From assembly GCF_014203715.1 (NCBI RefSeq), contig NZ_JACHJP010000008.1, positions 186,001-250,000 of the forward strand: DNA of 64,000 nucleotides, given 5' to 3'. The translations under genes and the position numbers were made by a program. The DNA is from Streptosporangium saharense (GTDB lineage: Bacteria; Actinomycetota; Actinomycetes; Streptosporangiales; Streptosporangiaceae). The notes under the pieces were generated by a model. It was not told where the DNA came from. It saw only the letters and a list, made by a program, of their open reading frames with translations, and ran no database searches. Numbering within the stretch: the stretch's first letter is position 1; each line of letters begins with the position of its first letter. Below, piece after piece: positions 37,205-61,053 of this stretch.

Positions 37205-40200
37205 TCAGACGGTGAGCCAGGAGAGGACGGTTCCCGCCGTGGTGCCGGAGTGGTCCTCAAGGACCGAGAAGTGGTCGCCGGGGGTGTCCAGCGCGGTGTG
37301 GGGAAGCGCCCAGACGGCCCGCCAGCCGTACGACTCACGGATCTCCTCCACCCACGGGTCGGCGGCCCGGACCAGCAGGGTGGGGGTGTCGATCGGTTCG
37401 GGACGCCAGCCGGAGAAGATCCGGTGGTAGGCGCCCATGGCGGCCAGGCGGGTGTCGTCGCAGAGCGCGAAGGCGGACTCGCGGTCCTTCATCACGGCGG
37501 ACATCGACGGTTCGAGCGACGGGAGCTGGTCGTAGTCCGGGTCGTAGGTGTCGATCAGGGCGAGGCCTGCGGGACGGGTCCCCAGCCGCTCCAGCCTGCT
37601 CGCGACGGCGTGCGCGATCCAGCCGCCCGCAGAACGGCCGACCAGGACGAAGGGACGGCCCTCCAGGTGCCTGAGCACCGACCCGGCGTGCGCGGCGGTC
37701 AGCGCCGCCAGGTCCGCGGGCGGCAGCTCACCGTCCACGAAGCCGGGCTGCGGCAGCACCAGCACCTCGTGCCGCCCACGCAGGGCGGCCGCGAACCGCG
37801 CGTACTCGTGCGGCCCCGAGACCGGCCCGAAGGACGGCAGGCAGACCAGCACCGTGGCCTCGGCCGGTTCCCCGGTCAGCCGGATCGGCTCGGGGATCCG
37901 CGCGTGCGCCTCGGCCTCGGGGAAGGAGGGGCGGCACCGGGAGGCGGCCTTGAGCAGGGCGAGCGCATCCATCGAGGACGCCTCCTCGCACGCCCGCCAG
38001 TAGAGCGTCGCCAGCGGCCCCGCCTGGGCCTCCGGGGCGTCGGTGCGCTCGGTGAGGCTGAGGAGCTCGCGCAGGTGGGTGGCGAGCAGCGCCGGGGACG
38101 GCTGGTCGTAGACCACCTTGGTGGGGAGCCGAAGTCCGGTGGCCGCGTTGAGCTGGTTGCGCAGGGTCAGCGCGGTCAGCGAGTCGAAGCCGAGTTCGAG
38201 GAAGCGCCTGCCCGGATCGACCTGCGTGGAACTCGCGTGACCGAGCACCCCGGCCACCCTGCCGAGCACCAGCTCCAGGAGGATCCGCTCCCGCTCGGCC
38301 TCCCCGGCCCCCGCCAGCCGCGCGACCAGCCGCTCCTTCTCCTCGTACGGTTCCGGGCGCTGGGGGAGTGCACCGCCGGGCACGAGGTCGCGCAGCAGGG
38401 CGGGCACCGGGCCGGGGGCGGCCTGCCGGGCGATGGCGGCCACGTCAAGCCGGGCGGTGACCAGGGTGGCGTCCCCGGCGCTCAGGGCCGCGTCGAACAG
38501 GGCCAGCCCCTCGGCGGTGGAGAGCGGGGCGACCCCGCCGCGCGTCATCCGGGCAAACTCGGCCTCGCTCAACCGCCCCGTCATGCCGGACCGTTCGGCC
38601 CACAGCCCCCAGGCGAGCGACTGCGCGGGCAGTCCCCGGGAGCGGCGGTGCTCGGCGAGCGCGTCCAGGAAGGCGTTGGCCGCACCGTAACCGGCCTGGC
38701 CCGCGCTGCCCAGGGTGGCGGCGGCCGAGGAGAACAGGACGAACGCGCTGAGGTCCAGGTCCCGGGTCAGCTCGTGGAGGTTGAGCGCGGCATCGACCTT
38801 CGGCCGCAGCACGGTGTCCACCCGCTCGGGGGTGAGCGAGCCGAGCACGCCGTCGTCCAGGACGCCCGCGGTGTGCACGACGCCGGTCAGCCGCAGGCCG
38901 GTGAGCAGCGCGGCGAGCTGCTCGCGGTTGGCGGCGTCGCAGGCGGCAACCGTCACTTCGGCGCCCGCGTCCTGGAGTTCGGCGACGAGTTCTGCGGCGC
39001 CGGGGGCGTCGGGGCCGCTTCTGCTGGTGAGCAGGAGGTTCCGTACGCCGTGTTCGGTGACGAGGTGACGGGCGATGTGGGCGCCGAGGGTGCCGGTGCC
39101 TCCGGTGACCAGCACCGTGCCCTCCGCGTCGAACGGCCTGGCCGCTTCCCGCTCCCGAGGCACCCGGGCGAGCCGGGCGGCGTGCACGACACCGTCGCGG
39201 ACCACGAGCTGCGGCTCACCGGAGGCCAGGGCGGCGGCCATGGCGGGCGTGTCCCACTCGTCCACGTCGAGCAGGACGAACTGCCCAGGACACTCGGCCT
39301 GCGCTGACCGCACCAACCCCCAGACCGGCGCCCAGACGAGGTCGTCGAGCCCGGGACCCGCCGCACGCCGGGTGACCAGGACGAGACGGGCCCCGGCGAA
39401 CCTCGGCTCGGCCAGCCACGCCCGCAGCAACTCCAACGTCTGGTTGACGGCATCCCGTACGGCGCCCGCCCGCCCCGGGCCGTGACCCAGCCGGTGTCCC
39501 AGCCGGTGCACGACGGTTCCCGGGACGGGGGTGTTCGTGGCGAGGTCGTCGAGGAGGATGAACGGCTCCGCCTCCCGGGTGGCCGGAACCTGCGGCTGCC
39601 AGACGGTACGGAACAGGGAGTCGGCGGACGCCCTGCCACGCGGCCCCTCCAGCCAGTAGCGGTCCCGCTGGAACGGGTAGGTCGGCAGGTCGACGAGGTT
39701 CGCGCCGGTGTAGGTGGGGGTGAGGTCGGGGGTGATGCCTCGGACGTGGAGGTTGGCGGCTGCGGTGTGGAAGGTGGTGCGGTCGCCGTGGTCGCGGCGG
39801 AGGGTGCCGTGGGTGATGGTGGGTGCGGGGGTGTCGTCGAGGGTTTCCTGGATGCCGGTGGTCAGGACGGGGTGGGGGCTGACTTCCAGGATGGCGTGGA
39901 AGCCGTGGGTGGTGAGGGTGTGGATGCCTTCGGCGAAGCGGACGGGCTGGCGCAGGTTGCGGTACCAGTAGGCGGCGTCGGTCTCGGCCTGGTCGATCCA
40001 GCGGTTTTCGAGGGTTGACCAGAAGGGGATCTGCGGCGTTTGGGGGGCGACGGGGGCCAGGATTTTGAGCAGGTCGTGTTGGAGCTGCTCGACGTGGGGG
40101 CTGTGGGAGGCGTAGTCGACGGGGACGCGCCGGTTGTGGATGTTTTTTGCGTTGAGTACGGCCTGCAGCTCGTCGAGGGCGTCACCGTCGCCGGAGACGA

Positions 40201-42946
40201 CGGTTGAGGAGGGGCCGTTGAGGGCGGCGATGGAGATCCGTCTGTGCCAGGGGGCCAGGTCGATCTGGTCGGCAGGGAGGGTGATGGAGAGCATGCCGCC
40301 GTTTCCGGCGATGGCGGTGATGGCCTGGGACCGCAGCGCCACGACCCGGGCACCGTCTTTCAGGGAGAGTGCTCCGGAGACCGTCGCGGCGGCGATCTCA
40401 CCCTGGGAATGGCCGATCACGGCGTCGGGGTGGATGCCGTAGGAGCGCCACAGTTCGGCCAGGGAGACCATCACGGCCCACAACGCGGGCTGGACGACGT
40501 CTACTCGGTCGAGGGTGCCGTGTAGTTCTTTGAGAAGGTCCCAGTCGGTGAACTCGGCCAGGGCTTCGGCGCATTCCGTGAGGCGTTGGGCGAAAACCGG
40601 TTCGGTGTCCAGGAGGTCGAGGGCCATGCCGGTCCACTGGGTGCCCTGGCCGGGGAAGACGAAGAGGGTCTTTCCGGTCACGTCGGCGGTTCCGGTGATG
40701 ACATTCGGCGGGGTCTGTCCTGCGGCGTAGTCGGCCAGCGCCGTGCGGTCGGCGTCGATCACCACCGCGCGGTGGGCGAAGGCGGTGCGGGAGACGGCCA
40801 GGGAGTGGCCGACATCCACGGGCCGCAGGGCAGGGTTGGCGGCCAGATGCTCAGCGAGCCGGACGGCCTGCGCACGCACGGCGGCCTCGGTACGCCCGGC
40901 CAGCAGCCAGGGCACCCGCTCGGCGGTGACGGTCGCGGAGGTCGCCCCCGGGGAGTGACCGATGTCGGCCTGTGCGCGTCCGGCCTGCGGCCAGGGTGCC
41001 TGCTCGGTGGTGGCGGTCGTGGGGGCCGTCTTCGGGGGGTGGCCGATGTCGGTGGGTTGGGTGGCCTGTGCGCGTCCGGCCTGTGGCCAGGGCACCTGTT
41101 CGGCGGTGGCGGTCGTGGGGGCCACCTTCAGGGAGTGGCCGACGTTGGCCTGTGCGCGTCCGGCCTGCGGCCAGGGCACCTGCTCAGCGGTGGCGGTCGC
41201 GGGGGCCGCCTCTGGGGAGTGCCCGGCGTCGGTGGGCTGGGCGGCCTGCGTGCGTCCGGCCTGCGGCCAGGGCGCCCGCTCGGCGGTGGTGGTCGTGGGG
41301 ACCGTTTCCGGGGAGTGGCCGATGTCGGCGGTCTCGGTGCGTCCGGCCTGCGGCCGGGGCACCTGCTCAGCGGTAGCGGTCGTGGGAGCCGTCTTCGGGG
41401 AATGGCCGATGTCGGTGGGTTGGGTGGCCTGTGCGCGTTCGGCGGCCTGTGCGTGTCCGGTCTGCGGCCAGGGCGCCTGTTCGGTGGTGGGGGCCGTTTC
41501 CGGGGAGTGTCCGGCGTCGGTGGGCTGGGCGGCCTGCGTGCGTCCGGCCTGTGGCCAGGGTGCCCGTTCGGCGGTTGAAGGGACCGGCTCCTCCTCGGGG
41601 GCCTGTTCCAGGATGACGTGGGCGTTGGTGCCGCTGATGCCGAAGGAGGAGACGCCCGCCCGGCGTGGCCTGCCCGTCTCGGGCCATGGACGGGCCTCGG
41701 TGAGGAGTTCCACGGCGCCGGTCGTCCAGTCCACGTGTGAGGAGGGACGGTCCACATGGAGGGTGCGGGGCAGCAGGCCGTACCGCATGGACAGGATGGT
41801 TTTGATGACGCCCGCGACTCCCGCGGCGGTCTGGGTGTGGCCGATGTTGGACTTGATCGAGCCGAGCAGCAACGGCTGTGAGCGGTTCTGGCCGTAGGTG
41901 GCCAGCAACGCCTGGGCCTCGATGGGGTCGCCGAGTCTGGTGCCGGTGCCGTGCGCCTCCACGGCGTCGATCTCGCTCGCCGTGAGCCCGGAGGCGGTAA
42001 GCGCCTGGCGGATGACACGTTCCTGGGCGGGGCCGTTCGGGGCGGTGAGGCCGTTGGAGGCGCCGTCCTGGTTGATCGCGCTGCCCCGGATGACCGCCAG
42101 CACCCGGTGCCCGTTGCGGCGGGCGTCCGACAGGCGTTCGAGGAGCAGTACGCCGACGCCCTCGGAGAACCCGGTGCCGTCGGCCGCGTCCGCGAACGCC
42201 TTGCACCGGCCGTCGGCCGCCAGCCCCTTCTGCCGGGTGAACTCCACGAACAGGCCGGGGGTGGACATCACCGCCACACCACCGGCGAGGGCGAGGTCGC
42301 AGCCGCCCCGGCGCAGTTCCTGGACCGCCAGGTGGATCGTCACCAGCGAGGAGGAGCACGCGGTGTCCACGGTGATCGCGGGACCTTCGAGTCCCATCGC
42401 GTACGCGACCCGGCCTGAGGCGACGCTGCCCGCGCTGCCGTTGCCGAGGTAGGCGGCCACCGCGTCGGGCACCTCGTCCAGCCGGGCGGCGTAGTCGTGG
42501 TACATGACGCCCGCGAAGACGCCGGTACGGCTGCCGCGCAGTCTCTCCGGCGCGATGCCCGCCCGTTCGACGGCCTCCCAGGAGGTCTCCAGGAGCAGCC
42601 GTTGCTGGGGGTCCATGGCGAGTGCCTCGTTGGGGCTGATCCCGAAGAACGCGGCGTCGAATTCGGCGGCGTCGTACAGGAACCCGCCCTGGGCGGTGGC
42701 ACTGTCCCCGCCCAGGTCCCAGCCACGGTCGGTGGGGAACGGGCCGATGCCCTCCGCGCCCTCGGCGAGCAGCCGCCAGAGGTCCTCGGGCGAGCGCACC
42801 CCACCGGGAAGGCGGCAGGCCATGCCGGTGACGGCGATGGGCTCGTGGGCGATGGCGTCGAGCCGTTCGTTCTGCCGCTTGAGCCGCTCGTTGTCCTTGA
42901 GCGAGACGCGGAGCGCCTCGACGATCCGCTCCTGGGTGGTGGTCAT
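37205..42946 (-). CDS. Type I PKS, terminal module KS-AT-KR-ACP-TE (PKS4)
   Basis: Last assembly-line protein, 1913 residues. Docking helix 1-33; KS about 34-450 (DTACSSS, EAHGTGT, NIGHTQ); expanded linker 456-687; AT about 762-1060 with GHSQG and YASH, predicting methylmalonyl-CoA; KR about 1277-1450 with [16 protein letters not shown] (B-type) and catalytic YGAAN; ACP near 1582 ([11 protein letters not shown]); thioesterase about 1695-1913 with GRSAGG, an Asp in LIDTYDP and a His in [11 protein letters not shown]. No DH, so the beta-hydroxyl should survive. The TE releases the chain by lactone formation or hydrolysis. ATG at 42946 has AAGGAG; a longer open frame upstream overlaps PKS3 and is not real. 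The 230-residue KS-AT linker expansion is highly unusual. Confidence 0.93.
40885..41578 (-). repeat. In-frame repeat expansion in the PKS4 KS-AT linker
   Basis: Seven copies of a 24-39 residue unit, core [14 protein letters not shown] followed by [16 protein letters not shown] with variable loss of the middle, then an eighth, canonical copy ([20 protein letters not shown] ... DVGHSLA). Copies begin near plus-strand positions 40979, 41073, 41158, 41253, 41339, 41453 and 41543. No stop or frame break. The unit appears to be a shortened duplicate of the conserved linker itself. Confidence 0.88.
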
Positions 42947-42963
42947 GGTCGTGTCGCTCCTTC

Positions 42964-45900
42964 TCAGACGGTGCCCAGCGCCAGTTCGACGAGGCCCGCG
43001 ATGTCCATGTCGTCGATCTCGGCGGCCCGCGCCCGTTCCGCGGCGGCCTGGTCCTCCGCGGCCTGCTCGGCGGGCTCGGCCTCGGGCAGGAGCAGTGCGC
43101 ACAGGCGCTGGGCGAGCGTGGCGACGGCCGGGTAGTCGAAGATCGCTGTCGCGGGCAGCCGTACACCGGAGGCCTGGTAGAGCCGGTTGCGCAGCTCGAC
43201 CGCGGTCACCGAGTCGAGCCCGAGCCCGCTGAACGGCAGGTCGGGATCGACGGCCTCGGCCGAGGAGTGCCCGAGCACCCCGGCGACCTGCTCCCGCACC
43301 AGGTCGAGTACGGCCCGGCGCCGGTCGGCCTCCGTGAGGGCGGCCAGCCGCTCGGCAAGCCCGCCGTCCTGGGCGGTGGACGCCTGTACGGCCCGGCGCC
43401 CCGTGGGGCGGATGAGGGCGCGCAACAGGTGCGGCACCGGCGACAGCCCGCGCAGCACCGCCAGGTCGAGCTTTGCCGGGACCACCAGCGCGGCGGGTAC
43501 GGCGAGGGCGGCGTCCAGGAGGGCGAGGCCGTCCCGCGCGGAGAGCGGCACCGTGCCGCCCCGGCTCATCCGTTCGAGCTCCGCCTCGCCGAGGTGCCCG
43601 GTCATGCCGCTGGGCTGCGCCCACAGCCCCCAGGCCAGCGACTGCGCCGGGAGCCCGGCCGCCCGGCGCCGGGCCGCCAGCGCGTCCAGATAGGCGTTGG
43701 CCGCGGCGTAGTTGCCCTGGCCGGGACTGCTGAAGGTCGCGGCGGCCGAGGAGAACAGGACGAACGCGGCGAGATCCTGGTCCCGGGTCAGCTCGTGGAG
43801 GTTGAGCGCGGCGTCCACCTTGGGGCGCAGCACCCGGGCCAGGGCCTCGGGAGTCAGCGTCTCGATGACGGCGTCGTCCAGGACACCCGCGGTGTGCACG
43901 ACACCGGTCAGCCGCAGGCCGGTGAGCAGCGCGGCGAGCTGTTCGCGGTCGGCCACGTCGCAGGCGGCGACCGTCACCTGGGCGCCCGCGTCCTGGAGTT
44001 CGGCGACGATTTCTGCGGCGCCGGGGGCGTCGGGTCCGCTTCTGCTGGTGAGCAGGAGGTTCCGTACGCCGTGTTCGGCGACGAGGTGGCGGGCGACGTG
44101 GGCGCCGAGGGTGCCGGTGCCCCCGGTGACCAGGACCGTGCCGTCCGCGTCGAACGGCCTGGCGGACGCCTCGGGGACGGCCCTGACCAGGCGCGGAGCG
44201 AGCACCCTGCCGTGCCGTACGGCCAGCAGAGGTTCGCCGGAGGCCAGCGCGGACGGCAGGGCGGCGGCGTCGGCGGGGGTGTCGAGATCGACGACGAGGA
44301 ACCGGCCGGGATTCTCGGCCTGCGCGGAGCGCAGCAGGCCCCACAGCGTCGCGTGGACCAGCCCCGGCACCGTGTCACCGTCGGCGGCGGCGACGGCTCC
44401 TTCGGTCAGCACCACCAGGCGCGCCCCGCCGAACCGCTGGTCGGCCAGGAACTCCTGCAGCAGGCTCAGAACGTCACCGGTCACCCGGTGCGTGTCCGTC
44501 ACGGACTCGCCATCGGTCCTCGGGGCGGGCAGGAACAGCACGTCCGGCGCGGTGGTCACGGCGGCCAGGGAGTCCAGGCGGATTCCCGGGATGCCCGGGG
44601 CGTCACCGAGCACCGCCCAGCGCTCCACCGGTATGTCCCCGGCCGCCGTGACGCCGGTCCACTCGACCTGGAAGAGCGCGTCGCGCATGCCGTACCCGGT
44701 GGATCGGAGCTGCCGCGCGGAGATCGCCCGTACGGCCAGCGACTCCACCGAGGCGACCGGCGCCCCGGCCTCGTCGAACAGCGCCAGGGCGACCGAACCC
44801 GGTCCCGTGGGGGAGATCCGTACCCGAAGCGCGGTGGCGCCGCAGGCGTGCAGCCGTACGCCACTCCAGGCGAACGGCAGGCCGGTGCCCTCGGAACCTT
44901 CCTGGCGGGCGAGCCCCATGCCGTGCAGCGCGGCGTCCAGCAGCGCCGGGTGCAGGACGAACCGTTCCGCGTCGCCGTGCGCCTGCGCGGGCAGCCGTAC
45001 CTCGGTATAAATCTCCTCGCCGAGCCGCCAGGCCCGGGTCAGCCCCTGGAACACCGGGCCGTAGCCGTAACCGGCCCGTGCCAGGCGGTCGTAGAAGCCG
45101 TCGGTCTCCACGGATACGGCCCCGGCGGGCGGCCAGGAACCGAGCGCGGTGGCGTCGTTGGCGGTGCTGTCGGTGGTGAGCAGGCCGCTGGCGTGCCGGG
45201 TCCACGGCTCGTCGTACGGCGCGTCCTGCGGGCGGCCGTACACCGTCACCGCGCGTGAACCGGAGGCGTCCGCCGCCCCGACCACGGCCTGTACGGCGAC
45301 GCCGCCGCGCTCGGGCAGCACGAGGGGGACCTCGATGGTCAGGTCCTCGACCAGGTCACAGCCCACCTCGTCACCGGCCCGGACCGCGATCTCCAGGAAG
45401 GCCGTGCCGGGCAGCAGCACGGTGCCGGACACGGCGTGGTCGGCCAGCCAGGGGTGGGTACGCAGCGACAGCAGCCCGGTGAGCACCAGCCCGTCACCCT
45501 CGGCCAGCGGCAGCGCGGCGCCGAGCAGCGGATGCTCGGTCGAGCCGAGACCCACGGCGGCGACATCCCCTGCGCCTGAGGACGGCTCCAGCCAGTAGCG
45601 CTCGTGCTGGAACGGGTAGGTGGGCAGATCGACCGGGTGTGCGTCGGTACGGGGGGTGAGGTCGGTGGTGATGCCTCGGACGTGGAGGTGGGCTGCCGAG
45701 GTGAGGAAGGTGGTGCGGTCGCCGTGGTCACGGCGCAGGGTTCCTTGGGCGATGGTGGGTGCGGGGGTGTCGTCGAGGATTTCCTGGATGCCGGTGGTCA
45801 GGACGGGGCGCGGGCTGACTTCGACGATGGCGTGGAAGCCCTGGGTGGTGAGGGTGTGGATGCCTTCGGTGAAGCGGACGGGTTGGCGCAGGTTGCGGTA

Positions 45901-48900
45901 CCAGTAGGTGGCGTCGGTTTCTGCCTGGGTGATCCAGCGGTTTTCGAGGGTGGACCAGAAGGGGATCTGCGGTGTTTGGGGGGTGACCGGGGCGAGCAGG
46001 TTCAGCAGGTTTTCGTGGAGCTGTTCGACGTGGGCGGAGTGGGAGGCGTAGTCCACGGGGACGCGGCGGTTGTGGATGTTTTTTGCGTTGAGTACGGCTT
46101 GCAGCTCGTCGAGGGCCTTCATGTCGCCGGAGATGACGGTTGAGGTGGGGCCGTTGAGGGCGGCTGTTGCCAGGCGCTCGTGCCAGGGGGTCAGGTCGAT
46201 CTGGTCGGCAGGGAGGGTGATGGAGAGCATGCCGCCGTTTCCTGCGATGGCGGTGATGGCCTGGGATCTGAGGGCGACGACGCGGGCTCCGTCCTTCAGG
46301 GACAGCGCTCCGGAGACGGTCGCGGCGGCGATCTCTCCTTGGGAGTGGCCGATGACGGCGTCGGGGTGGATGCCGTAGGAGCGCCACAACGCTGCGAGGG
46401 AGACCATGACGGCCCACAGGGCGGGTTGGACCACGTCTACTCGGTTGAGGTCGCCTTTGAGGGCTTCGAAGAGGTCCCAGTCGGTGTATTCGGCCAGGGC
46501 TTCGGCGCATTCGGTGAGGCGTTGGGCGAAAACCGGTTCGGTGTCCAGGAGGTCGAGGGCCATACCGGTCCACTGGGTGCCCTGGCCGGGGAAGACGAAG
46601 AGGATTTTGCCGGTGACGTCGGCGGTGCCGGTGACGACGTTCGGCGGGGTCTGTCCTGCGGCGTAGTCGGCCAGCGCCGTGCGGTCGGCACCGATGACCA
46701 CCGCGCGGTGGTTGAACAGCGACCGTCCCGTGAGCAGCGAGTGGCCGACGTCGGCGGGGCTCAGGGAGGGGTTGGCGCTCAGGTACTCGGCGAGCCGTGC
46801 GGCCTGCGCACGCAGTGCCTCAGGACTCTTCGCGGAGAACGCCAGCGGAACGAGACCCGCCCCGGCCTCGGACCGCTCGGCGTCGGTCGTGGACCGTCCG
46901 GTTTCACCGGCTTTCGGTCGTCCGGTCTCGCCGGTCTCGGGCTGCCCGGTCTCTTTGGTCGCGGATCGCCCGGTTCCACTGGTTTCCGGCTGCTGGGCCG
47001 TGGCGGTCTCGGACCGTCCGGTTCCACCGGCTTCCGACCGCCCAGCCTCGCCGGTCTCGGGCTGCCCGGTCTCTTCGGTCGCGGACCGTCCGGCCCTACC
47101 GGCCTCCAGCTGCTGGGTCGTGCCGATTGCGGATGGCCAGGTCCCGTTGGTGGTGGACCGTCCGGTTCCACCGGCTTTCGGCTGCCCGGTCTCGCTGGTC
47201 TCGGGCTGTCTGGTCTCTTCGGTCGCGGATCGTCCGGTTCCACCGGCTTTCGGCCGTCCGGCTTCGCCGGTCTCGGACTGCCTGGCCTCACTGGTTTCCG
47301 GGTGCTGGGTCGTGCTGGTCGCGGATGGCCCGGTCCCGTTGGTCGCGGACCGACCGGCCCTACCGGTCTCCAGCTGTTGGGTTGTGTAAATCGCGGATTG
47401 CCCGGTCTCGTCGGCCTTGGGCCGTCCGTTTCCGTTTCTGGCCTCGTCGCTCGTTGAGCGTCCGGTTCCGTTGGTCTCGGACGGGCTGGTCTCGCTAGTT
47501 CTGCCGGTTGCGGATGGCCTGGTCCCGTTGGTGGCGGGCTGTTCGGTTTCACCGGTTTCCGACCGCCTGGTTCCGTTGGTCTTGGGCAGCCCGGCCTCGC
47601 CGGTTCCCGGCCGCTGGGTCGCGCCAACCGCGAGCCACCCGGTCCCGTTGGTCACGGTCTGTCCGGTTATGCCGGACTCGGATCGCCCGGTCCTGTCGGG
47701 TTCCGGCCCCCTGGCCTCGTCGGTCGCGGATCGCCCGGCCCCATCGGTCACGGACCATCCGGCCTTATCCGACTCCGGCCGTGGAGGTTCTGGGGCCTGT
47801 TCGAGGATGACGTGGGCGTTGGTGCCGCTGACGCCGAAGGAGGAGACGCCTGCTCGGCGGGGGCGGCCGGTCTCCGGCCAGGAACGGGCGCTGGTGAGGA
47901 GTTCGACCGAACCGGCAGTCCAGTCGACCTCGGGAGTCGGTTCGTCCACGTGCAGGGTGCGGGGCAGCGTGCCGTACCGCATGGACAGCACCATTTTGAT
48001 CACGCCCGCCACGCCCGCCGCGCACTGGGTATGGCCGATGTTGGACTTGATCGAACCGAGCAGCAACGGCTCTGAGCGGTTCTGGCCGTAGGTGGCGAGC
48101 AGGGCCTGGGCCTCGATGGGGTCGCCGAGGCGGGTGCCGGTGCCGTGGGCCTCGACGACGTCCACGTCGGCCGGGGTCAGCCGGGCGTCGGCGAGGGCGT
48201 GCCGGATGACCCGCTGCTGGGAGGGGCCGTTCGGGGCGGTGAGGCCGTTGGAGGCGCCGTCCTGGTTGACGGCGCTGCCCCGGATCACGCCGAGGATTCG
48301 GTGCCCGTTGCGCTGGGCGTCCGACAGGCGCTCAAGCAGGATCATGCCGACGCCCTCGCTCCAGGCGGTGCCGTCGGCCGCCCCCGCGAACGCCTTGCAG
48401 CGGCCGTCCGCCGCCAGCCCCTTCTGCTGGCTGAACAGGACGAACATCCCGGGGTTCGACATCACCGTCACCCCACCGGCCAGGGCCATGGAGCACTCGT
48501 CCCGGCGTAGCGACTGGGCCGCCCAGTGCAGCGCGACCAGCGAGGAGGAACAGGCCGTGTCCACCGATACGGCCGGACCCTCAAGGCCGAAGCTGTAGGC
48601 GATCCGGCCCGAGGTGACGCTTGAGGTCGTGCCGGTGCCGAGGTAGAGGTCAACGCCCTCCGGGATGTCCGAGGCGGTGCCGTACAGCTGGGAGGTGGTG
48701 CCGACGAAGACGCCGGTACGGCTTCCGGCCAGCGACTGCGGGTCGATGCCCGCCCGTTCGACGGCCTCCCAGGAGGTCTCCAGGAGCAGTCGTTGCTGCG
48801 GGTCCATGGCGAGTGCCTCGTTGGGGCTGATCCCGAAGAACGCGGCGTCGAACCCGGCCGCGCCGTCGAGGAAGCCGCCGTGGCGGGTGTAGCTGGTGCC

Positions 48901-49164: not shown

Positions 49165-49278
49165 GTCGGAACCACTTCCTGCTACGGATGCTGATTGCTG
49201 GGGGCCGTCCCGGTCCGGGCCGCGCCGCGCACGGCGGTGAGGCCGGTTCGGCGGCCGGGGTGCTGCTACGTGGGGGGC

Positions 49279-52200
49279 TCAGTTCAGGGAGTCGACGAGG
49301 GCGAAGAGTTCGGCGTCCGAGGCGGAGTCGAGGTCGCTGTCGTCACCCGCGAGGCGGGCGTCGGAGGCGTCCTGGCCGCCGAGACGGTCGAGCAGGGCGC
49401 GCAGGCGCGGGGTGAGGTCGCCGAGCGGGTGACCCTCGGCCAGCCGCCGTTCCAGGGCGGCCTCAAGGCGGTCCAGTTCGGCCAGGCCGGGCTCACCCCG
49501 GGGCGCGGTCCCCTCGTGGGGCAACCGCTCGTCGAGGAAGGCGGCAAGCGCGGCCGGGGTCGGGTAGTCGAACACCAGGGTCGCGGGCAGCCGCAGCCCG
49601 AGCGCCTCGTGCAGGCGGCCGCGCAGCTCGACGGCGGTCAGTGAGTCGAAGCCGATCTCCTTGAACGTCCTGGTCGCCTGTACGGCCTCGGCCGAGGAGT
49701 GGCCGAGCACATCGGCGACCTGGGTGCGGACGAGGTCGACCAGCGCCCTGGTCCTGGCTTCCCCGGTCAGTCCGGCGAGCCTCTGGGCCGGGGGCTGCCC
49801 GCCCTCGGTGGCCCGCCGTACCGGAGCGCGGACCAGGCCACGCAGCAGCGGCGGGACCTCCTTGCCCTGGAAGACCGAGGGGGTGAGCCTGGCCGCGACG
49901 GCCACCGGGTCCGTCCCGGCCAGGGCGGCGTCGAACAGTTCGAGGCCCTGCTCCTCCTGGAGCGGGGTGAGGCCGCCCCTGGCCATCCGGGCGAGGTCGG
50001 CGCGGCCGAGCCCACCGGCCATGCCGCGCCGTACCGGATCGTCCAGCAGCCAGGGACCCCAGGCGATGGCCGTGCCCGGCAGTCCGGCGGCGTCGCGGCC
50101 GTGGGCGAGCGCGTCCAGGAAGGCGTTGGCGGCGGCGTAGCCCGCCTGTCCCGCCGCCCCGAACACCCCGGCGACCGAGGAGAACAGGACGAAGGCGTCG
50201 AGGTCCCGACCAAGGGTCAGTTCGTGCAGGTTGACCGCGCCGTCCACCTTGGGCCGCAGCACCGTGGCGATCCGCTCCGGGGTGAGCGACTCGACAAGTC
50301 CGTCGTCGAGCACCCCGGCGGTGTGCACCACGGCGGTCACCGGGTGCTCGGCGAGCAACCGGGCCACCTGCTCGCGGTCGGCCACGTCGCAGGCGGCGAT
50401 CGTCACCTCGGCACCCGCCTCACGCAGCTCGGCGACGAGTTCGGCCGCCCCCTCTGAGGAGGGACCGCCACGGCTGACGAGCAGCAGGCGGCGCACGCCG
50501 TACCCGGAGACCAGGTGCCGGGCCGTGAGCCGTCCAAGCGCGCCGGTGGCACCGCTGACCAGCACCGTGCCGTCCGCACGGAAGGTCGGCGGGGTCGCGT
50601 CGGCGGTGGTCCTGGCCAGTCTGGGCACGGTCACCACGCCTTGACGGATGACCAGCTGGGGTTCGTCTGTGGCCAGCGCGGCGGGCAGGGCGTCGGCGGA
50701 GGTGTCGGTTCCATCCAGGTCGAGCAGGACGAACCGGCCGGGGTGTTCGGCCTGCGCGGAGCGGACCAGGCCCCACAGGGAGGCGTGCGCGAGGTCCTCG
50801 ACGTCGTGGCCGGTGGCGTTCCTGGTGACGAACACCAGCCGGGAACTGGTGAACCGCTGGTCGGCCAGCCAGTCCTGGAGCAGCCCTAGCGCGCGGCCGG
50901 TGACGGAGCCCACCCGCTCGGCCAGGGGTCCTTCCGAAGGGGCCGTCCAGTGCGTGAGCACGGTCTCCGGGACGTCCTGGCCGGAAGTGAGCTCGTCCAG
51001 TACGGCCCAGCCGACGGTCGCCGGGGCTTCGGGAAGCCGCAGCTCGGTCAGGTCGATCCGGTAGAGGGCGTCCCGGCCCGCCGTACCGGCGCCGGTGATC
51101 GCCTTCGGGGACACCGGACGCATGACCAGCGACTCCACCGAGGCGACCGGCTCGCCCGCGGCGTCGGCGATGGCGAAGGCGACGCCGCCCTCACCGGCCG
51201 GGGTCAGCCTGGCCCGGACGGAGGAGGCACCGGAGGCGTGCAGCTCGACGCCCGTCCAGGCGAACGGCAGGCGGCCGTGCGGGGCCTCCTCGGGGGAGAC
51301 GCGCTCAAGCAGCACGGAGGCGGCCATCGCCTGGAGCACCGCGTCGAACATGCCCGGATGGACACCGAACCGGCTGGCCGCCGCGCGGCCCTCCTCGGGC
51401 AGCGTGACCTCGGCGAAGACCTCCTCGCCTCGCCGCCACAGGGCCCTCAGCCCGGCGAACAGCGGGCCGTAGGCGAAGCCGGTCTCGGTCGCGCGCCGGT
51501 AGAAGCCGTCGAGGTCGATCTCCTCGGCGCCGGGCGGCGGCCAGGCGCGCAGGTCGAAGTCCGGCGTGGCCCTGCCGGAGCCGAGAACGGCGTCGGCGTG
51601 GTGCGTCCACCCGGCGTCGGGGGCGTCCTCGGGCCGGGAGTGCACGGTGAGCGGGCGCCGTCCCACGGCGTCGGCCTGGCCGACCCGCACCTGGAGCAGC
51701 ACGCTCCCGGTGCGCGGCAGGACCAGCGGCGCCAGATGGGTGATCTCCTCGACCCGGTCACAGCCGACCCGCTCGGCCACGTGCAGCGCCAGCTCGGCGT
51801 AGGCGACACCGGGGACCACGGAGCGGCCCATGACGCCGTGCTCGGCGATCCACGGGTGGGTCCTCTCGGAGAGCGAGCCGGTGAACAGGACCCCGGTGCC
51901 GTCGGCCAGCTCGGCCGTCGCCCCGAGCATCGGGTGCTCGGCGGGCCCGAGCCCGGCCCCGGCCAGGTCGGCCGGTCCCTCCGCGTCCTCAAGCCAGTAC
52001 CGCTCCCGCTGGAAGGCGTAGACGGGCAGTTCGGTACGGCGGGCACCGCGCAACAGCCGTGCGAAGTCGACAGTGGCGCCACGCAGCTTGAGCGCGGCCA
52101 GCGCCTCGACGAACGACTGCTCCTGCGGCCGGTCCCTGCGCTGGGCGGCGACCAGCGCGAACCGGGCGCCGGGCAGGCTCTCCCGCCCCGCGGCGGTCAG

Positions 52201-55200
52201 CACCGCGTCGGGGCCGATCTCCAGGAAGGTGGTCGCGCCGCGCTCGGCCAGCGTGAGCAGCGCGTCGTGGAACCGTACGGCGTCGCGAACGTGCCGCACC
52301 CAGTACTCGGGGTCGGCTACCTCGATTGGCAGCGGGATCGTCGGCGCGTGGTAGGTCAGCGACTCGGCGACCGCGCGGAACTCCTCCAGCATCGGGTCCA
52401 TCAGCGGCGAGTGGAAGGCGTGGCTGACCCGCAGCCGCCTGGTGCGGTGCCCGCGTTCGGCGAGCCGCTCGGTGACGGCCAGCACCTCCTCCTCGTGACC
52501 GGCGACCACCACGGCCTCGGGGCCGTTGACGGCGGCCAGCGAGACCCGGTCGCCGAGCAGCGGCAGCACCTCGTCCTCGGGAGCCTGGACGGCCACCATC
52601 GCGCCACCGGCCGGGAGACCCTGCATGAGCCTGCCACGTGCGGCGACAAGCCGGGCGGCGTCGGGGAGGCTCAGCACCCCGGCGACGTGCGCGGCGGCCA
52701 GCTCACCGACCGAGTGCCCGGCGACGAAGTCGGGCCGGAGGCCGAAGGACTCGACGAGGCGGTAGAGGGCGACCTCGAAGGCGAACAGCGCGGGCTGGGT
52801 CCAGCCGGTCTGGTCCAGCAGCTCGCCTCCCTGGAAGACCACCTCGCGCAGCGGACGTTCCAGGTGCTCGTCCAGTTCGGCGCAGACGGCGACGAACGAA
52901 GCCGCGAACTCCGGGTACGCGTCGTACAGCTCACGCCCCATGCCCGGCCGCTGGGCGCCCTGGCCGGTGAAGAGGAAGGCGGTCCTCCCGGTCGCGGCCC
53001 CGCCCCGCAGACCCCGCCCGGCCGCCAGCGCCTCCAGTCCGTCCAGCAGGCTCTCCCGGTCACGAGCCACCACCGCGCCCCGGTGCGGCAGCTCGGCCCG
53101 GTGCGCGATCAGCGAGTGCGCGACATCGGGGAGTACGGCCCGCGGACGCTCGGCCAGGAAGGCGGCGAGCCGCCCGGCCTGGGCGGAGAGCGCCTGCTCG
53201 GAGTGGCCGGAGAGCAGGAAGGGGACGGCGCTGTGCCGGGTTGGGGTGGCGGGATCCGGTTCCCTTTGGGGGGTTTGTTCGAGGGTGATGGGGGCGTTGG
53301 TGCCGCTGGTCGAGGCGGTGGGGTCCGGGTCTTCTTGGGGGTTTTGTCCGGGGGTGGTGCCGCTGGTCTGGGTGGCGGGGGCCGGTTCCCCTTGGGGGGC
53401 CTGCTCAGGGATGACGTGGGTGTCGGTGGAGCTGGTCTGGGGTGAGAGCGGGGACGGGATGGTGCCGTGACCGGCCGGGGCGGTGGGGTTCGGTTCTTCC
53501 TGGGGGATTTGTCCGGGGGTGATGGGGGCGGTGAAGGCCGGTTCCTTCTGGGGGCTCCGCTCAGGGGTGACGTGGGTGTCGGTGGGGCTGGTCTGGGGGG
53601 CGAGCGGGGACGGGACGGCGCCGTGACCGGTCGGGGCGGTGGGGTTCGGTTCTTCCTGGGGGGCCTGTTCGAGGATGACGTGGGCGTTGGTGCCGCTGAT
53701 GCCGAAGGAGGAGATGCCCGCCCGGCGTGGTCTGCCCGTCTCGGGCCATGAACGAGCCTCGGTGAGCAGTTCGACGGCTCCCGAGGTCCAGTCGACCTCC
53801 GGGGTGGGCGCGTCCACGTGCAGGGTGCGGGGGAGCGTGCCGTACCGCATCGCCAGGACCGTCTTGATGATGCCGCCGACACCGGCGGCGGCCTGGGTGT
53901 GGCCGAGGTTGGACTTCAGCGAGCCGAGCAGCAACGGCTGTGAGCGGTTCTGGCCGTAGGTGGCGAGCAACGCCTGGGCCTCGATGGGGTCGCCGAGTCT
54001 GGTGCCGGTGCCGTGGGCCTCGACGGCGTCCACCTCGGCCGGGGTGAGCCCGGCGGCGCTCAGGGCCTCGCGGATCACCCGTTCCTGGGCGGGGCCGTTG
54101 GGCGCGGTGAGGCCGTTGGAGGCGCCGTCCTGGTTGATCGCGGTGGCCTTGACGACCGCGAGCACCGGGTGCCCGTTGCGGCGGGCGTCGGAGAGCCGTT
54201 CGACCAGGAGGACGCCCACGCCCTCCGCGAAGCCGGTGCCGTCGGCGGAGGCGGCGAAGGCCTTGCACCGGCCGTCGGCCGCCATGCCGCCCTGCCGGTC
54301 GAACTCGGCGAACAGCCCAGGAGTGGACATCACGGCCACCCCGCCCGCCAGCGCCAGGTCGCATTCGCCACGCCGCAGCGCCGCGACCGCCAGGTGCAGG
54401 GCGACCAGCGAGGAGGAGCAGGCCGTGTCCACGGTGATCGCCGGACCCTCGAAGCCGAAGGTGTAGGCCACCCGGCCGGAGATCACGCTCGCCGCGCTGC
54501 CGTTGCCGAGATAGCCCTCGACCTCGGCGGGGACGCGGCGCAGCCGCGAGGCGTAGTCCTGGCCGCTGGTGCCGGTGAACACGCCGACCCGGCCGCCCCG
54601 CACGGAAGTCGGGTCGATCCCGGCCCGCTCGAAGGTCTCCCACGAGGTCTCCAAGAGGAGCCGCTGCTGCGGGTCCATGGCGAGCGCCTCGCGGGGGCTG
54701 ATCCCGAAGAACGCGGCGTCGAACTCGGCGGCGTCGTGCAGGAAACCGCCCTGCCCCTCGCCCTCCCAGCCACGGTCGGTGGGGAAGCCGGTCAGCGCGT
54801 CGCCACCGTCCAGCACGAGCCGCCACAGCTCCTCGGGCGAGCTCACCCCGCCCGGGTAGCGGCAGCCCATCGCCACGATCGCGACGGCGTCCTCGTCGGC
54901 CACGGTCGTGGCCTGTACGGCGGGCGCGGCCTCGGCCGTACCCAGCAGGTGGGCGCGCAGGTGGCGGGCCAGGGCGGTCGGGGTCGGGTGGTCGAAGACC
55001 AGGGTGGCGGGCAGGCGCAGCCCGGTCGCCGTGTTGAGCCGGTTGCGCAGCTCGACGGCGGTCAGCGAGTCGAAGCCGAGGTCCTTGAACGCGCGCCCGG
55101 CGTCGATCTCGTCCGCCGACGCGTGCCCGAGCACGGCGGCGGCGTGAGCGCGCACCAGGTCGAGCAGCTCGGCCTCCCCGAGGGCGGCCAGCCGTTCGGT

Positions 55201-58200
55201 CAGCGCGGAACCACGCGGGCCGGAGACCGCCTCTGCCCTCCTACGGGCCGGGGCCCGCACCAGGCCGCGCAGCAGCGCCGGGACGGGGCCGCGCCCGCGC
55301 TGGGCCGAGAGGTCGAGGTCGGCGGGCAGCAGCAGCGGCTCGTCCAGCAGCGAGGCCGCGTCGTACAGGGCCATGCCGAGTTCGGAGGTGAGCGGGGTCA
55401 TGCCGCCCCTGCCCATCCGCTCGACGTCGCGGGCGTCCAGGTGCCCGGTCATCGCGCTGCGCCGCTCCCACAGGCCCCAGGCGAGCGACTGCGCGGGCAG
55501 GCCCAGGGCGCGGCGGTGCTGGGCGAGGGCGTCGAGCAGCGTGTTGGCCGCGGCGTATCCGCCCTGACCGGCGCCGCCGAGCACCCCCGCGGCCGAGGAG
55601 AACAGGACGAAGCAGGCGAGATCGTGGTCGGCCGTCAGCTCGTGCAGGTTGAGCGCGCCGTCCACCTTCGGCCGTAGCACGGCATCGACCCGCTCCGGGG
55701 TGAGCGAACCGATCACGCCGTCGTCCAGGACGCCCGCGGTGTGCACCACGCCGGTCAGCCGTACGCCGGAGAGCAGCGCGGCGAGCTGCTCGCGGTCCGC
55801 GACGTCGCACGCGGCGACGGTCACCTCGGCGCCGTGCTCGACGAGTTCGGCGACGAGCTCGGCGGTGCCCGGGGTGTTGGGGCCGCCTCTGCTGGTGAGC
55901 AGCAGGTGCCGGACGCCGTGCTCGACGACCAGGTGACGGGCGAGCAGGGCGCCGAGGGTGCCGGTGCCGCCGGTGATCAGGACGGTGTCCTCGGGGTCGA
56001 GCGCGGGCGGGACGGTCAGCACGACCTTGCCGATGTGTTTGGCCTGGCTGACGTACCGGAAGGCGTCGGCGGCGCGCCGTACGTCCCAGGTGGTGGTCGG
56101 CAGCGGACGCAGCGCACCCGCCTCGAACAGCGCGACCAGCTCGGAGAGCATCTCGCCGATCCGCTCCGGGCCCGCCTCGAACAGCTCGAAGGCACGGTAG
56201 GCCACGCCGGGGTGCCGGGCCGCGACCTCCTGGGCGTCCCGGATGTCGGTCTTGCCCATCTCGACGAACCGGCCGCCCCGAGGCAGCAGTCCGAGTGAGG
56301 TGTCCACGAACTCCCTGGCCAGCGCGTTGAGCACGACGTCCACGCCGGCACCGTCGGTGGCCTTCAGGAACGTGGCCCCGAAGTCCAGGGTTCGGGAGTC
56401 GGCCAGATGGAGACCATCCAGGCCGAGCGCGTCCCACTTGCCCCGGCTTGCGGTGCCGTACACCTCGGCACCCAGGTGACGGGCGAGCTGGACGGCGGCC
56501 ATGCCCACCCCACCGGCGGCGGCGTGCACCAGGACGGACTCGCCCGCGCGCAGTCCCGCGAGATCGACGAGCGCGTAGTAGGCGGTGAGGAAGACGATCG
56601 GGACGGACGCCGCCTCGGTGAAGTCCCAGCCCTGCGGCATCCTCACCAGCAGCCGGTGGTCGGTGACCGCGACGGTGCCGAAGGAGCCCGCGAACATGCC
56701 CATCACCCGGTCGCCGGGGGCGAGGCCGGTGACGTCGTCGGCGACCTCGATGACGACGCCCGCGCCCTCGTTGCCGAGCAGCCCGGCCTGGCCGGGATAC
56801 ATGCCGAGCGCGTTGAGCACGTCGCGGAAGTTGAGGCCCGCCGCGCGCAGGGCTACCCGGACGTGGCCGGGGGCGAGCGGTTCCAGGGTCTCGGGGCAGG
56901 CCACGAGGGACAGGTTGTCCAGGGTTCCCCGGTCCGCGATGTCCAGCCGCCACGGGGTGCCCGCCGGGGGCCTGAGCGCGGTCGAGGTCGCGGCGCGGGC
57001 CAGTCTGGCGGCCAGTACGGTGCCGTCGCGCAGGGCGAGCCGGGGCTCACTGGTGGCCAGCGCGGCGGGCAGCGCGGCGGCGGAGGCCTCGGTGCCGTCC
57101 AGGTCGACCAGGACGATCCGGTCGGGGTTCTCCGACTGCGCGGACTGGGCCAGCCCCCACAGGGCGGAGCAGGCCAGGTCGGTCACGTCCTCACCGGGCC
57201 GGACGGCGACGGCGCCGGTGGTGGCGATCACCAGCCGGGCGTGCGCGTAGCGGTCCTCGGCGAGCCAGGTCCGCAGCAGCTCAAGCACCCGGCGCGTGAC
57301 GGCGTGGACCCGCTCGGCGGTGCCGCCCTCAGCGGGCGCCACGACCGGCACCAGCACGGTCGCGGGGACCTCGGTGGGCAGCAGGTCAAGACTCTCGGTC
57401 CGGTACGGCTCCGCGGCCTCGTCGGGGAGCGGCACGGCTACCCAGTCGATCCGGAACAGGGAGTCGGCCGTCGTGTCCGGCCTCAGCGTGTCGGCGGCCA
57501 GTGGACGCAGCACGAAGGAGTCGGCACTCGCCACCGGGGCGCCGGAACCGTCGGCGACCAGCAGCGAGACGCTGTCCTGGCCGGTGCGGGTGAGGCGGAC
57601 GCGCAGCTCGGCGGCGCCGGAGGCGTGCAGCGTCACCCCGCTCCAGGCGAACGGCAGGTGACCGAGCCCCCGGCCATCCTGTACGGCACAGCCGAGCGCG
57701 TGCAGGGCGGCGTCCAGCAGCGCCGGGTGCAGTCCGTAGCGCTCGGCCTGTTCCCGCTGACCCTCGGGCAGCCGGACCTCGGCGTAGACGTCCTCGCCGT
57801 CCAGCCAGGCGGCGCGCAGGCCACGGAAGGCCGGGCCGTACCCGAGACCGCCCTCGGCGAGCCGTTCGTAGTAGCCGTCCAGGTCAACGGCGGTCGCGCC
57901 CTGCGGCGGCCAGGCGGTCAGCCGTTCCCCGGTCACCGGGGCATTTTGGGCGAGGAAGCCGCTGGCGTGGCGGTCCCAGGGAGCGTCCTGCGCGGCGTCC
58001 TCCCGACGGGAGTGGACGGTGACCTCGCGCCGCCCTCCCTCGTCGGCCGGGCCGACCCGCACCTGGAGGGCGACGCCGCCGCGCTCGGGCAGCACCAGCG
58101 GACTCTCCAGGGTCAGTTCGTCAACCCGCTCACAGCCGACCTGGTCCCCGGCGTGAACCAGCAGGTCCAGGAAGGCCGTGCCGGGCAGCAGGACGGACCC

Positions 58201-61053
58201 GAGCACGGCGTGGTCGGCCAGCCAGGGGTGGGTGCGCAGCGAGAGGCGGCCGGTGAGCAGCAGCCCGTCCCCGTCGGCCAGGGTGAGCGAGGCACCGAGC
58301 AGCGGGTGGTCGGCGCCGCCGAGACCCAGGTCCGCGGCGTCGCCCGCGCCGCCCGCGACGGTGTCCAGCCAGTAGCGCTCCTGCTGGAAGGGGTAGGTGG
58401 GCAGGTCGATCCGGTGGGCGCCGGGGAAGACGGTGCCCCACCCGATCTCGTGGCCGCGCACGTACAGCGCGGCGAGCGCGGCGCGGAACCGGGCGGGCCC
58501 ACCCTGGTTGCGGCTCAGCGTGCCGACGGCGACGGCTGTGGCCTCGGCGCTGTCCAGGGTGTCCTGTACGGCGGAGGCGAGCACGGGATGTGGACTTGCC
58601 TCGACGAAGAAGGCGTGCCCGTCGGCCGCCAGGGCGCGCACCCCCTCCTCAAGCCGGACGGTCCGCCGCAGGTTGCGGTACCAGTACGCGGCGTCGGTCT
58701 CGGCCCGGTCGATCCAGCGGTTCTCCAGGGTGGACCAGAAGGGGATCTGCGGCTTCTGCGGGGTGACCGAGGCGAGCAGCGTCAGCAGCTCCTCATGGAG
58801 TCGCTCGACGTGGGCGGAGTGCGAGGCGTAGTCCACCGGAACGCGCCGGTTGTGGACCCCTTGTTCGTCGAGTACGGCCTGCAGCTCGTCGAGGGCGTCG
58901 CTGTCGCCGGAGACGACGGTCGAGGAGGGTCCGTTGAGGGCGGCTACTGCCAGGCGCTCGTGCCAGGGGGTCAGGTCGATCTGACTTGTGGGGAGTGAGA
59001 CGGACAGCATGCCGCCGTTTCCGGCGATGGCGGTGATGGCCTGCGATCTGAGGGCCACGACGCGGGCGCCGTCTTTCAGCGACAGCGCTCCGGAGACGGT
59101 CGCGGCGGCGATCTCGCCCTGGGAGTGGCCGATCACGGCGTCGGGGTGGACACCGTACGAGCGCCACAACGCGGCGAGGGAGACCATGACGGCCCACAGC
59201 GCGGGCTGGACCACGTCAACCCGGTCAAGGGAGCCTTGCAGTTCTTCGAGGAGGTCCCAGTCGGTGAACTCGGCGAGGGCTTCGGCGCACTCGGTGAGGC
59301 GCTGGGCGAAGACCGGTTCGGTGGCGAGGAGGTCAACCGCCATACCCGCCCACTGGGCGCCCTGACCGGGGAAGACGAACACGGTCTTGCCGCTCACGTC
59401 GGCGGTGCCGGTCACCACCGAGGGCGACTCTTCACCGGTCGCGAACGCGTCGAGTGCGGCGGCCAGTCCCTCGTGGCCGTCGGCGACGGCGACCGCGCGC
59501 CTGACGAAACCGGAACGCCCGGTGGCCAGCGAGTGGCCGAGGTCTGCGAGCCCGGGGGCGGTGTCCAGGTGCTCGCGCAGCCGTTCCGCCTGGGCGCGCA
59601 GCGCCCGCTCGGTCTTGGCGGAGAAGGGGAAGGGAATCGGGCCGGTCCGCTCGGACGGCTGCGGTTCGGGGGTCTCGGGGGCCTGTTCGAGGATGACGTG
59701 GGCGTTGGTGCCGCTGACGCCGAAGGAGGAGACGCCCGCCCTGCGCGGCCGTCCCGTCTCGGGCCACTCCCTGGCCTCGGTGAGCAGCTCGACCGACCCG
59801 GCCGACCAGTCCACGTGTGTGGAGGGACGGTCCACGTGCAGGGTTTTCGGCAGCAGGCCGTACCGCATCGCCAGGACCATCTTGATGACACCGGCGACAC
59901 CTGCGGCGGCCTGGGTGTGGCCGATGTTCGACTTGATCGAGCCGAGCAGCAACGGCTGTGAGCGGTTCTGGCCGTAGGTGGCCAGGAGTGCCTGGGCCTC
60001 GATGGGGTCGCCGAGGCGGGTGCCGGTGCCATGGGCTTCCACGGCGTCGACGTCGGCGGTGGAGAGCCGGGCGTTCTCCAGCGCCTGCTGGATGACCCGC
60101 TGCTGGGAGGGGCCGTTCGGCGCCGTGAGCCCGCTGGAGGCGCCGTCCTGGTTGACGGCGCTGCCCCGGATGACCGCCAGGACCGGGTGTCCGTTGCGCT
60201 GGGCGTCCGAGAGGCGTTCGAGCAGCAGCACGCCCGCGCCCTCGCCCCAGCCGGTGCCGTCCGCCGCGTCGGCGAAGGCCTTGCAGCGCCCGTCCCCGGC
60301 CAGCGCGGACTGCTTGGAGAACTCCACGAAGGACAGCGGCGTGGACATCACCGTGACACCGCCCGCCAGGGCGAGGGAGCACTCGTCCTGGCGGAGCGCC
60401 TGGACGGCCAGGTGCAGGGCGACCAGCGAGGCCGAGCAGGCGGTGTCCACGGTGACCGCGGGGCCCTCAAGGCCGAAGGTGTACGAGAGGCGGCCGGAGA
60501 CCACGCTCGCGCTGATGCCGGTCGCGAGGTAGCCCTCGCCCGCCGCGGGCGACCTGGTGACCAGCGCCGCGTAGTCCTGCCCGTTGGTGCCCGCGAAGAC
60601 GCCGGTCCTGCTGCCCCGCAGTGTCTGCGGGTCGATCCCGGCCCGCTCGAAGGCCTCCCAGGAGGTCTCCAGGAGCAGCCGCTGCTGGGGGTCCATCACC
60701 AGCGCCTCGCGCGGGCTGATCCCGAAGAAGCCCGCGTCGAACCGTGAGGCGTCGTACAGGAACCCGGCCTCGCGGACGTAGGAGGCGCCGGTGCCGTCGG
60801 TGTCGCCGTCGAACAGCCGGTCGATGTCCCAGCCACGGTCGGTGGGGAACTCGCCGACGGCGTCGCCGCCCTCGGCGAGCAGTCGCCACAGGTCCTCGGG
60901 TGTCCGTACGTCGCCGGGGAACCGGCAGCTCATCGCCACGACCGCGATCGGCTCGTGGTCGGCTTCCTCAAGTTCGCGAACCCGCTGGCGTGTCCTCCGC
61001 AGGTCTGCGGTCACCTTCTTGAGGTAATCGACGACCTTGTCATCCGTCCGCAT
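49279..61053 (-). CDS. Type I PKS, two modules KS-AT-DH-ER-KR-ACP / KS-AT-DH-KR-ACP (PKS2)
   Basis: A 3924-residue bimodular protein. Module A: docking helix 1-32; KS 33-455 (DTACSAS); short normal linker; AT about 563-860 with YASH (methylmalonyl); DH from 918 ([11 protein letters not shown]); ER about 1364-1690 ([38 protein letters not shown]); KR about 1691-1870 (LDD, YAAAN); ACP near 1996. Module B: KS about 2058-2460 (DTACSSS); repeat-expanded linker to 2610; AT about 2696-2990 with GHSVGE and HAFH (malonyl); DH from 3041 ([11 protein letters not shown]); KR from 3498 (LDD, YAAAN); ACP near 3800; C-terminal docking helices. All domains look active. ATG at 61053 with GGAAGGTG. Module A should give a fully reduced methyl-branched unit, module B a double bond. 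Confidence 0.94.
53223..53690 (-). repeat. Repeat expansion in the KS-AT linker of PKS2 module B
   Basis: About 156 residues. The KS tail motif [17 protein letters not shown] recurs in altered form ([39 protein letters not shown]), alternating with [17 protein letters not shown]-like pieces that echo the AT-side sequence [13 protein letters not shown]. About five or six rounds, Pro/Thr-rich, in frame. The expansion is again built from linker border sequence. Confidence 0.85.

Follow-up and report, generated by a model that had tools for sequence, protein, structure and literature searches.

Repeat-built expansions at the joint between KS and LAD in six modules of a PKS assembly line from Streptosporangium saharense

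In Streptosporangium saharense, a series of minus-strand PKS genes raises the question of how the linkers between KS and AT domains came to differ so widely in length within one assembly line, and where the additional coding sequence originated. The window analysed here comprises 64,000 nucleotides of contig C8 (C8:186001-250000); the gene run extends past the window and adjoining contig DNA was included. A first-pass annotation, made from the sequence of the window alone, had described in-frame extensions of roughly 156, 302 and 230 residues in three of four complete KS-AT linkers, each with its own unrelated repeat, in what it took to be a compact folded element with little length freedom. 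We re-measured every linker from the end of the KS (NAHVIL) to the start of the AT, placing the start of the LAD at the motif VPxxxSAK and defining the part before the LAD as the junction. Module order was inferred from gene order, with the loading module first and the thioesterase last.

The line has nine KS-AT linkers, which in assembly order measure 442, 155, 104, 345 and 102 aa outside the window and 103, 231, 401 and 315 aa from NAHVIL to the AT start inside it, the latter belonging to PKS2 module A, PKS2 module B, PKS3 and PKS4. The corresponding junctions before the LAD are 354, 67, 17, 263, 17, 17, 148, 317 and 231 aa long, so that six of nine are expanded: PKS1.1, PKS1.2 and PKS1b.1 outside the window, and PKS2.2 (PKS2 module B), PKS3 and PKS4 within it. 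The LAD is of ordinary length, 82–88 aa, in all nine modules. Re-measurement therefore confirmed large expansions in three of the four complete in-window linkers, with that of PKS2 module A ordinary, although this proportion describes the window and not the line of nine. The expansions are long and in frame as first described, while the sizes shift, the junction excess amounting to approximately 131 aa in PKS2 module B, 300 aa in PKS3 and 214 aa in PKS4. Another PKS cluster of this genome yielded four linkers, of 95–108 aa, and the genome's remaining KS hits gave no linker length.

In PKS4, the insert at the KS-LAD junction (231 aa; 40916..41608, minus strand, like all features placed in the window here) is made of a tandem unit of about 180 nt that resembles both the tail of its own KS and the head of its own LAD; a LAD of ordinary length, recognized as in PKS3 and PKS2 module B by profile match and length, follows at 40664..40915. 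The PKS3 insert (317 aa; 46852..47802) consists of nested units of 24, 72, 120 and 264 nt (ETGxxGRSxTGGTGRP) with a weak resemblance to its own KS tail, and its ordinary LAD lies at 46600..46851. The insert of PKS2 module B (148 aa; 53227..53670) has a 156-nt unit and contains degraded copies of its own KS tail, with the ordinary LAD at 52978..53226. The ordinary linker of PKS2 module A, a 17-aa junction plus LAD at 59380..59688, provides an internal control. Tandem Repeats Finder reported arrays at 40896-41443, 46862-47433 and 53380-53662. All inserts are in frame and stop-free within otherwise intact KS-AT modules, the five PKS genes have no internal stop, and each of the nine extension modules retains intact KS, AT and ACP motifs, with KSNVGH in one KS. 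We take KS Cys-His-His, AT GHSxGE and ACP GxDS to be the motifs of cis-AT modular type I PKSs, and with these motifs in each module and a folded LAD after the insert the line falls in that class. Expanded linkers stand before both AT motif types, in four of five YASH modules and two of four HAFH modules.

Every expansion precedes the LAD, and none was found inside the folded linker element itself. The PF16197 match stops at position 60 (PKS3) or 72 (PKS4) of 111, LAD models match past the insert, and PF22621 matches after the insert in PKS2 module B, PKS3 and PKS4. The inserts fall in the first ~17 residues of the linker, before the compact fold, and by sequence alignment the equivalent joint of a solved relative, 7s6b, would be some 17 residues long. 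According to the sections of PMC10423236 used here, the KS-AT linker begins with a disordered region followed by three helices around three strands. The same sections put the exchange junction us17 in an unstructured stretch; this stretch forms a random coil in 15 further modelled PKSs, bafilomycin module 5 excepted; and the linker start, an unstructured coil by AlphaFold analysis, is described as tolerating AT-exchange junctions. By our own mapping, it is in this random coil that the inserts lie. An excerpt of PMC11907408 calls the linker subdomain of ~100 residues well structured, so the premise of a compact fold with little length freedom applies to the LAD and fails for the joint ahead of it, the start of the linker being random coil in the cited part of PMC10423236. 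The inserts are rich in Pro, Thr, Ala, Gly, Glu and Ser, with hydrophobic residues at 4.7–11.9% in all six. A scan of the five PKS proteins found nine hydrophobic-depleted stretches, eight within the six expanded junctions, with three in PKS1.1, and the ninth in the loading module. By simple charge-hydropathy measures, all junctions score as disordered, and KS and LAD domains as ordered.

For comparison, we surveyed 120 stretches of at most 20 kb. They came from 65 other genomes, nine belonging to the genus, 31 to the family (via an order search) and 25 to further families of the class, and form a non-random sample picked by PKS domain matches and large open frames, in which the genus set came mostly from PF16197 hits and could favour intact linkers. 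Two stretches (L118, L155) yielded no linker, leaving 63 contributing genomes (8 genus, 30 family, 25 class). The 343 KS motifs gave 319 linkers, and 317 after two were dropped (L090:13573, L184:17282) in which the AT-start motif had been missed and the measured length ran into the AT. At least 150 aa were reached by 11 of the 317 (1 genus, 9 family, 1 class), at least 200 aa by two and at least 300 aa by none, against six, five and four of the nine linkers here; Fisher tests return 6e-7, 9e-8 and 3e-7 respectively, with modules of one line counted as independent, which they are not. Nor are such expansions common in the genus, where one of 109 valid linkers from eight other genomes is 150 aa or longer, the longest measuring 152 aa.

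Searches for relatives of the line as a whole were conducted at several levels. A TE query gave no match above 47% identity outside the own genome among 16 genomes of the genus, and a TE query of genome contigs, in a search that reaches close relatives only, returned one locus at 38% identity. The loading domain was matched at 55–65% identity in 17 of 341 family genomes besides the own (E <= 1e-150; up to four candidates per genome were scored); three linkers in two lines with a similar loading domain (L148, L150) are ordinary, at 105–109 aa. An orthologous line was thus not found by the TE and loading-domain searches. A scan of viral contigs gave no relative, and when the PKS4 and PKS3 linkers were compared by blastn with 72,556 plasmid records, all matches among the best 10 of 31 and best 10 of 20 records started near the insert end or beyond.

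The origin of the additional sequence was approached by comparing each insert with 161–162 windows of 30 aa across its own KS, LAD and AT, seven of which (4.3%) count as beside the joint. In all six inserts the top-matching window adjoins the joint, compared with 7 of 120 trials using shuffled inserts. The LAD head ranks top for PKS1.1 (z 16.8) and PKS1b.1 (z 9.2), and the KS tail for PKS2.2 (z 4.9), PKS4 (z 5.9, with the LAD head at z 5.0), PKS1.2 (z 3.4) and PKS3 (z 2.6). Resemblance to the flanks is strong in four of these; PKS1.2 and PKS3 are individually weak (KS-tail z 2.6–3.4) and had no match when the flank was limited to a short KS tail or to 40 aa at the LAD start. The own LAD head scores above those of the other eight modules for PKS1b.1 (59 vs 41) and PKS4 (58 vs 47), as does the own KS tail for PKS2.2 (71 vs 64); the PKS1.1 insert, which contains extra copies of the LAD head, has its own LAD head and that of PKS3 nearly tied (99 vs 98). 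DNA identity between insert and flank is 83% in PKS1.1 (25 codons), 81% in PKS2.2 (19), 69% in PKS4 (25) and 58% in PKS1b.1 (27). We propose a class, the flank-derived junction stutter, defined by an insert most like its own module beside the joint, and all six inserts belong to it, PKS1.2 and PKS3 weakly. In the loading module, which is of acyl-CoA-ligase type by resemblance, a Thr/Ala/Gly-rich repetitive expansion of ~117 aa (SGKTVTTSAGEPA...) precedes the KR-like part at C8:273062-273412, 23 kb past the window end; the flank test gave no match for it.

Elsewhere, the same pattern occurs on a smaller scale. The survey contains 34 junctions of at least 45 aa, three of which fell outside the flank test with a cut or masked flank, one of these (L136:638) being a clear KS-tail case. 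The test was positive in 4 of the remaining 31 against 1.17 expected, so ordinary variable joints do not as a rule derive from their flanks. Small cases recognized by reading comprise several TNAHVxLE copies in L136, KS-tail repeats in L152 and LAD-head repeats in L140; these resemble the line described here in that short tandem copies of KS tail or LAD head occupy the joint, but differ in that the total linker is 125–175 aa and one or two modules per 20-kb stretch are affected. A DNA pattern for tandem KS tails gave no hits in eight genomes and was too strict, the L136 copies being present by reading. Several individual loci of the survey may be recorded separately. One line in L136, a genome of the same family, has tandem KS-tail copies (TNAHVxLExPxP) at this joint in two modules (L136:638 and L136:5681), degraded in the second. 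Two long linkers in that family, L153:5405 (286 aa) and L154:12974 (246 aa), have low-complexity inserts, in which the KS tail ranks first (z 3.1) and no flank resemblance was seen, respectively. At L132:12727 a helix repeat (ADRLADHxAEHLAD) lies inside the LAD and not before it, indicating that the folded linker can also be lengthened.

The six inserts comprise four repeat families, of which those of PKS1b.1, PKS2.2 and PKS4 are private. PKS1.1, PKS1.2 and PKS3 share one family (z 8.9–14.9), PKS3 matching the two upstream modules at z 8.9 and 14.9. The repeats had first been called mutually unrelated, and this holds among the three in-window inserts (pairwise z -0.8 to 2.0) but not for the PKS3 repeat, which is common to two modules outside the window; because of the shared family, the six expansions are not independent. 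Repeat units match one another at 58–89%, and internal tandem identity reaches 80–81% in the PKS1.1 and PKS4 inserts.

Divergence between units was assessed after pairs with pN above ~0.4 had been treated as misaligned and left out. For unit pairs of at least 40 codons, dN/dS is 0.65 in PKS1.1 (120 codons), 1.07 and 0.75 in PKS3 (88 and 40), 0.90 in PKS4 (60) and 1.94 in PKS2.2, the last from 46 codons with few changes and therefore imprecise; shorter pairs scatter between 0.41 and 2.46. By comparison, dN/dS is 0.23–0.37 in the 18 of 72 KS or AT pairs above 80% DNA identity, and changes in the longer unit pairs are not clustered at third positions, unlike those in KS and AT domains. Fourfold sites on the coding strand are enriched in A, though not in T, in the six inserts, where A occupies 127 of 935 such sites as against 75 of 2388 in KS (Fisher 3e-26) and 97 of 1704 in AT (2e-11) domains. 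The Gly codon preference is nearly lost, Gly codons being used far more evenly than in KS domains. These patterns of unit dN/dS, third positions and silent sites indicate that insert sequence is close to free as long as reading frame and hydrophilicity are kept, silent sites showing a strand bias, and that the repeats represent a nearly neutral spacer rather than a sequence-specific element. With unit dN/dS near 1 and different sequences in different modules, there is no support for a sequence-specific role or for selection of particular spacer sequences. A local mutational mechanism and tolerance at the joint, both suggested at first pass, are supported by repeats that resemble their own flanks, strongly in four modules and weakly in two, and by near-neutral divergence of the units.

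The joint also coincides with the edges of longer similarities between modules. Five blocks of at least 300 nt at 85% identity or more connect modules of the line. The LAD-AT block of PKS3 (45586..46814) matches that of PKS4 (39647..40878) at 87.6% over 1238 nt, the PKS4 copy beginning 37 nt into the LAD, and the KS block of PKS2 module B (53659..54752) matches the KS of the first extension module (C8:270464-271557, outside the window) at 86.3% over 1096 nt and ends 11 nt into the linker. Among blocks of 85.9–87.6% identity, one (PKS1.1/PKS2.2 KS) thus ends 11 nt into the linker and two (PKS1.3/PKS1b.1 and PKS3/PKS4) begin 33–37 nt into the LAD. Identity steps at the joint, from 88% in the KS (last 300 aa) to 37% in the AT for PKS1.1/PKS2.2, from 80% to 91% for PKS1.3/PKS1b.1 and from 74% to 89% for PKS3/PKS4. 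On this sequence comparison, PKS2 module B and the first extension module appear to record a natural exchange of KS or AT that had the joint as its edge, although rapid divergence at the joint could account for part of the block-edge pattern. In the cited portions of the literature, the position after the KS is a recognized boundary of exchange units (PMC10661043) and laboratory PKS recombination occurs mostly within KS or AT (PMC5663706).

We consider it probable that the inserts arose by in-frame tandem duplication of DNA flanking the joint, at a KS-LAD joint that is unstructured and tolerant, followed by amplification and near-neutral divergence. The seed would be an in-frame tandem duplication of coding DNA beside the same module's joint, that is, the KS tail and/or the LAD head (VPxLLSAKTxxALRAQA); for the family common to three modules, the alternative to seeding from the own flank is that it was seeded once and passed between modules. 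Slippage or unequal recombination would then have amplified the copies and allowed them to diverge. Hydrophilic copies that keep the frame may be tolerated because the joint is presumably a surface coil able to loop out while KS, LAD and AT pack, and since the joint lies at the edges of blocks exchanged between modules, exchange probably supplied the initial duplications.

The principal competitor is that the inserts are selected disordered spacers, whose length and disorder, but not sequence, are kept for KS-AT geometry, ACP access or spacing. Expansion of six of nine modules far beyond the survey range, retention of frame and low hydrophobic content (4.7–11.9%) in all six, and charge-hydropathy scores that set junctions on the disordered side from KS and LAD on the ordered side all favour this reading. 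Yet three modules of the same line retain 17-aa joints, expansions precede both AT motif types (four of five YASH, two of four HAFH), unit dN/dS is near 1 and length is itself not conserved, ranging from 67 to 354 aa, which makes this reading unlikely. Somewhat less likely again is that the inserts are GRINS, skewed repeats spread between PKS modules by gene conversion, for which published criteria are at least 500 nt, more than 80% identity and skews above 0.15 (in the text of PMC9899208 consulted). Checked by blastn and 300-nt windows rather than by the published pipeline, the PKS3 and PKS4 LAD-AT blocks directly downstream of the inserts qualify as GRINS-like, with 87.6% identity over 1238 nt. 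Two consecutive 300-nt windows in each block have a GC skew between -0.35 and -0.46 and a TA skew between -0.22 and -0.33; the GC/TA skews weaken to -0.32/-0.20 in PKS3 and -0.30/-0.15 in PKS4 when the initial 900 nt of the AT are averaged. As for the inserts, TA skew lies between -0.30 and -0.63 and so beyond 0.15 in all six, silent sites are enriched in A, and one family is common to three modules. Against this, TA skew is not specific to inserts, reaching -0.82 in two of three ordinary 51-nt joints, GC skew exceeds 0.15 in four of six inserts only, the repeats stand in tandem and are for the most part module-private, and the best match between inserts of different modules is 292 nt at 68.5% DNA identity (PKS1.1/PKS3), far under that of GRINS.

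Two further explanations are both very improbable. Tandem repeats in a draft genome of 26 contigs invite suspicion of an assembly or sequencing artefact, but the units are visibly different (58–89% match), the inserts stay in frame throughout, and exact repeats extend to at most 41 nt in any insert and 84 nt across the PKS region as a whole, less than the length of ordinary short reads, so that assembly error has very little to recommend it. Decay of a non-functional assembly line might account for relaxed codon preference and near-neutral divergence within the inserts, but with intact KS, AT and ACP motifs in nine of nine modules, KS/AT dN/dS of 0.23–0.37 in 18 pairs and five PKS genes free of internal stops, we regard it as marginally the least credible reading of all.

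Duplication of joint-flanking DNA at a tolerant joint remains our preferred reading, and parts of it have precedents. An insertion of about 25 residues at the joint, GRINS, and exchange at the KS end are already known. In the passages of PMC10423236 consulted, bafilomycin PKS module 5 has a ~25-residue insertion in its KS-AT linker, in the same unstructured stretch between KS and folded linker; that case concerns a single module with no repeats mentioned in those passages, whereas here six modules carry 50–337 extra residues built of repeats. GRINS, described in 2021 (via the parts of PMC10394414 and PMC9899208 used here), are likewise skewed, recoded repeats in assembly-line PKS genes, and GRINS-like AT blocks adjoin the inserts; they are nonetheless ~1-kb blocks highly identical between modules, while the inserts are tandem, mostly module-private, add protein length and in two of six cases are without strong GC skew. 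Work on module exchange, as excerpted from PMC10661043 and PMC5663706, treats the KS-end joint as a used module boundary, where blocks end here also; these excerpts report module gain, loss and swapping with junctions mostly inside KS or AT and, unlike the present case, no repeat growth at the boundary. Beyond the bafilomycin remark, we found no description of repeat expansions at the KS-LAD joint in the consulted open-licence PMC literature, a body to which most subscription papers do not belong.

It is possible, though we offer it tentatively, that the KS-LAD joint is a mutational hot spot in assembly-line PKSs generally. Where KS or LAD-AT blocks are exchanged imprecisely, in-frame stutters of the flanks would remain at the joint and grow, as fossil scars of natural AT/KS exchange; in the present line these would have become disordered spacers of 130–340 aa in five modules without stopping the line. 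The start of the linker is a junction that engineers use for AT swaps. The joint apparently tolerates 50–340 extra disordered residues in six of nine modules, which would set a new upper bound on tolerance and suggests that tags or docking elements might be placed there. Should the stutters indeed mark natural exchange points, they would constitute a sequence-level record of assembly-line recombination.
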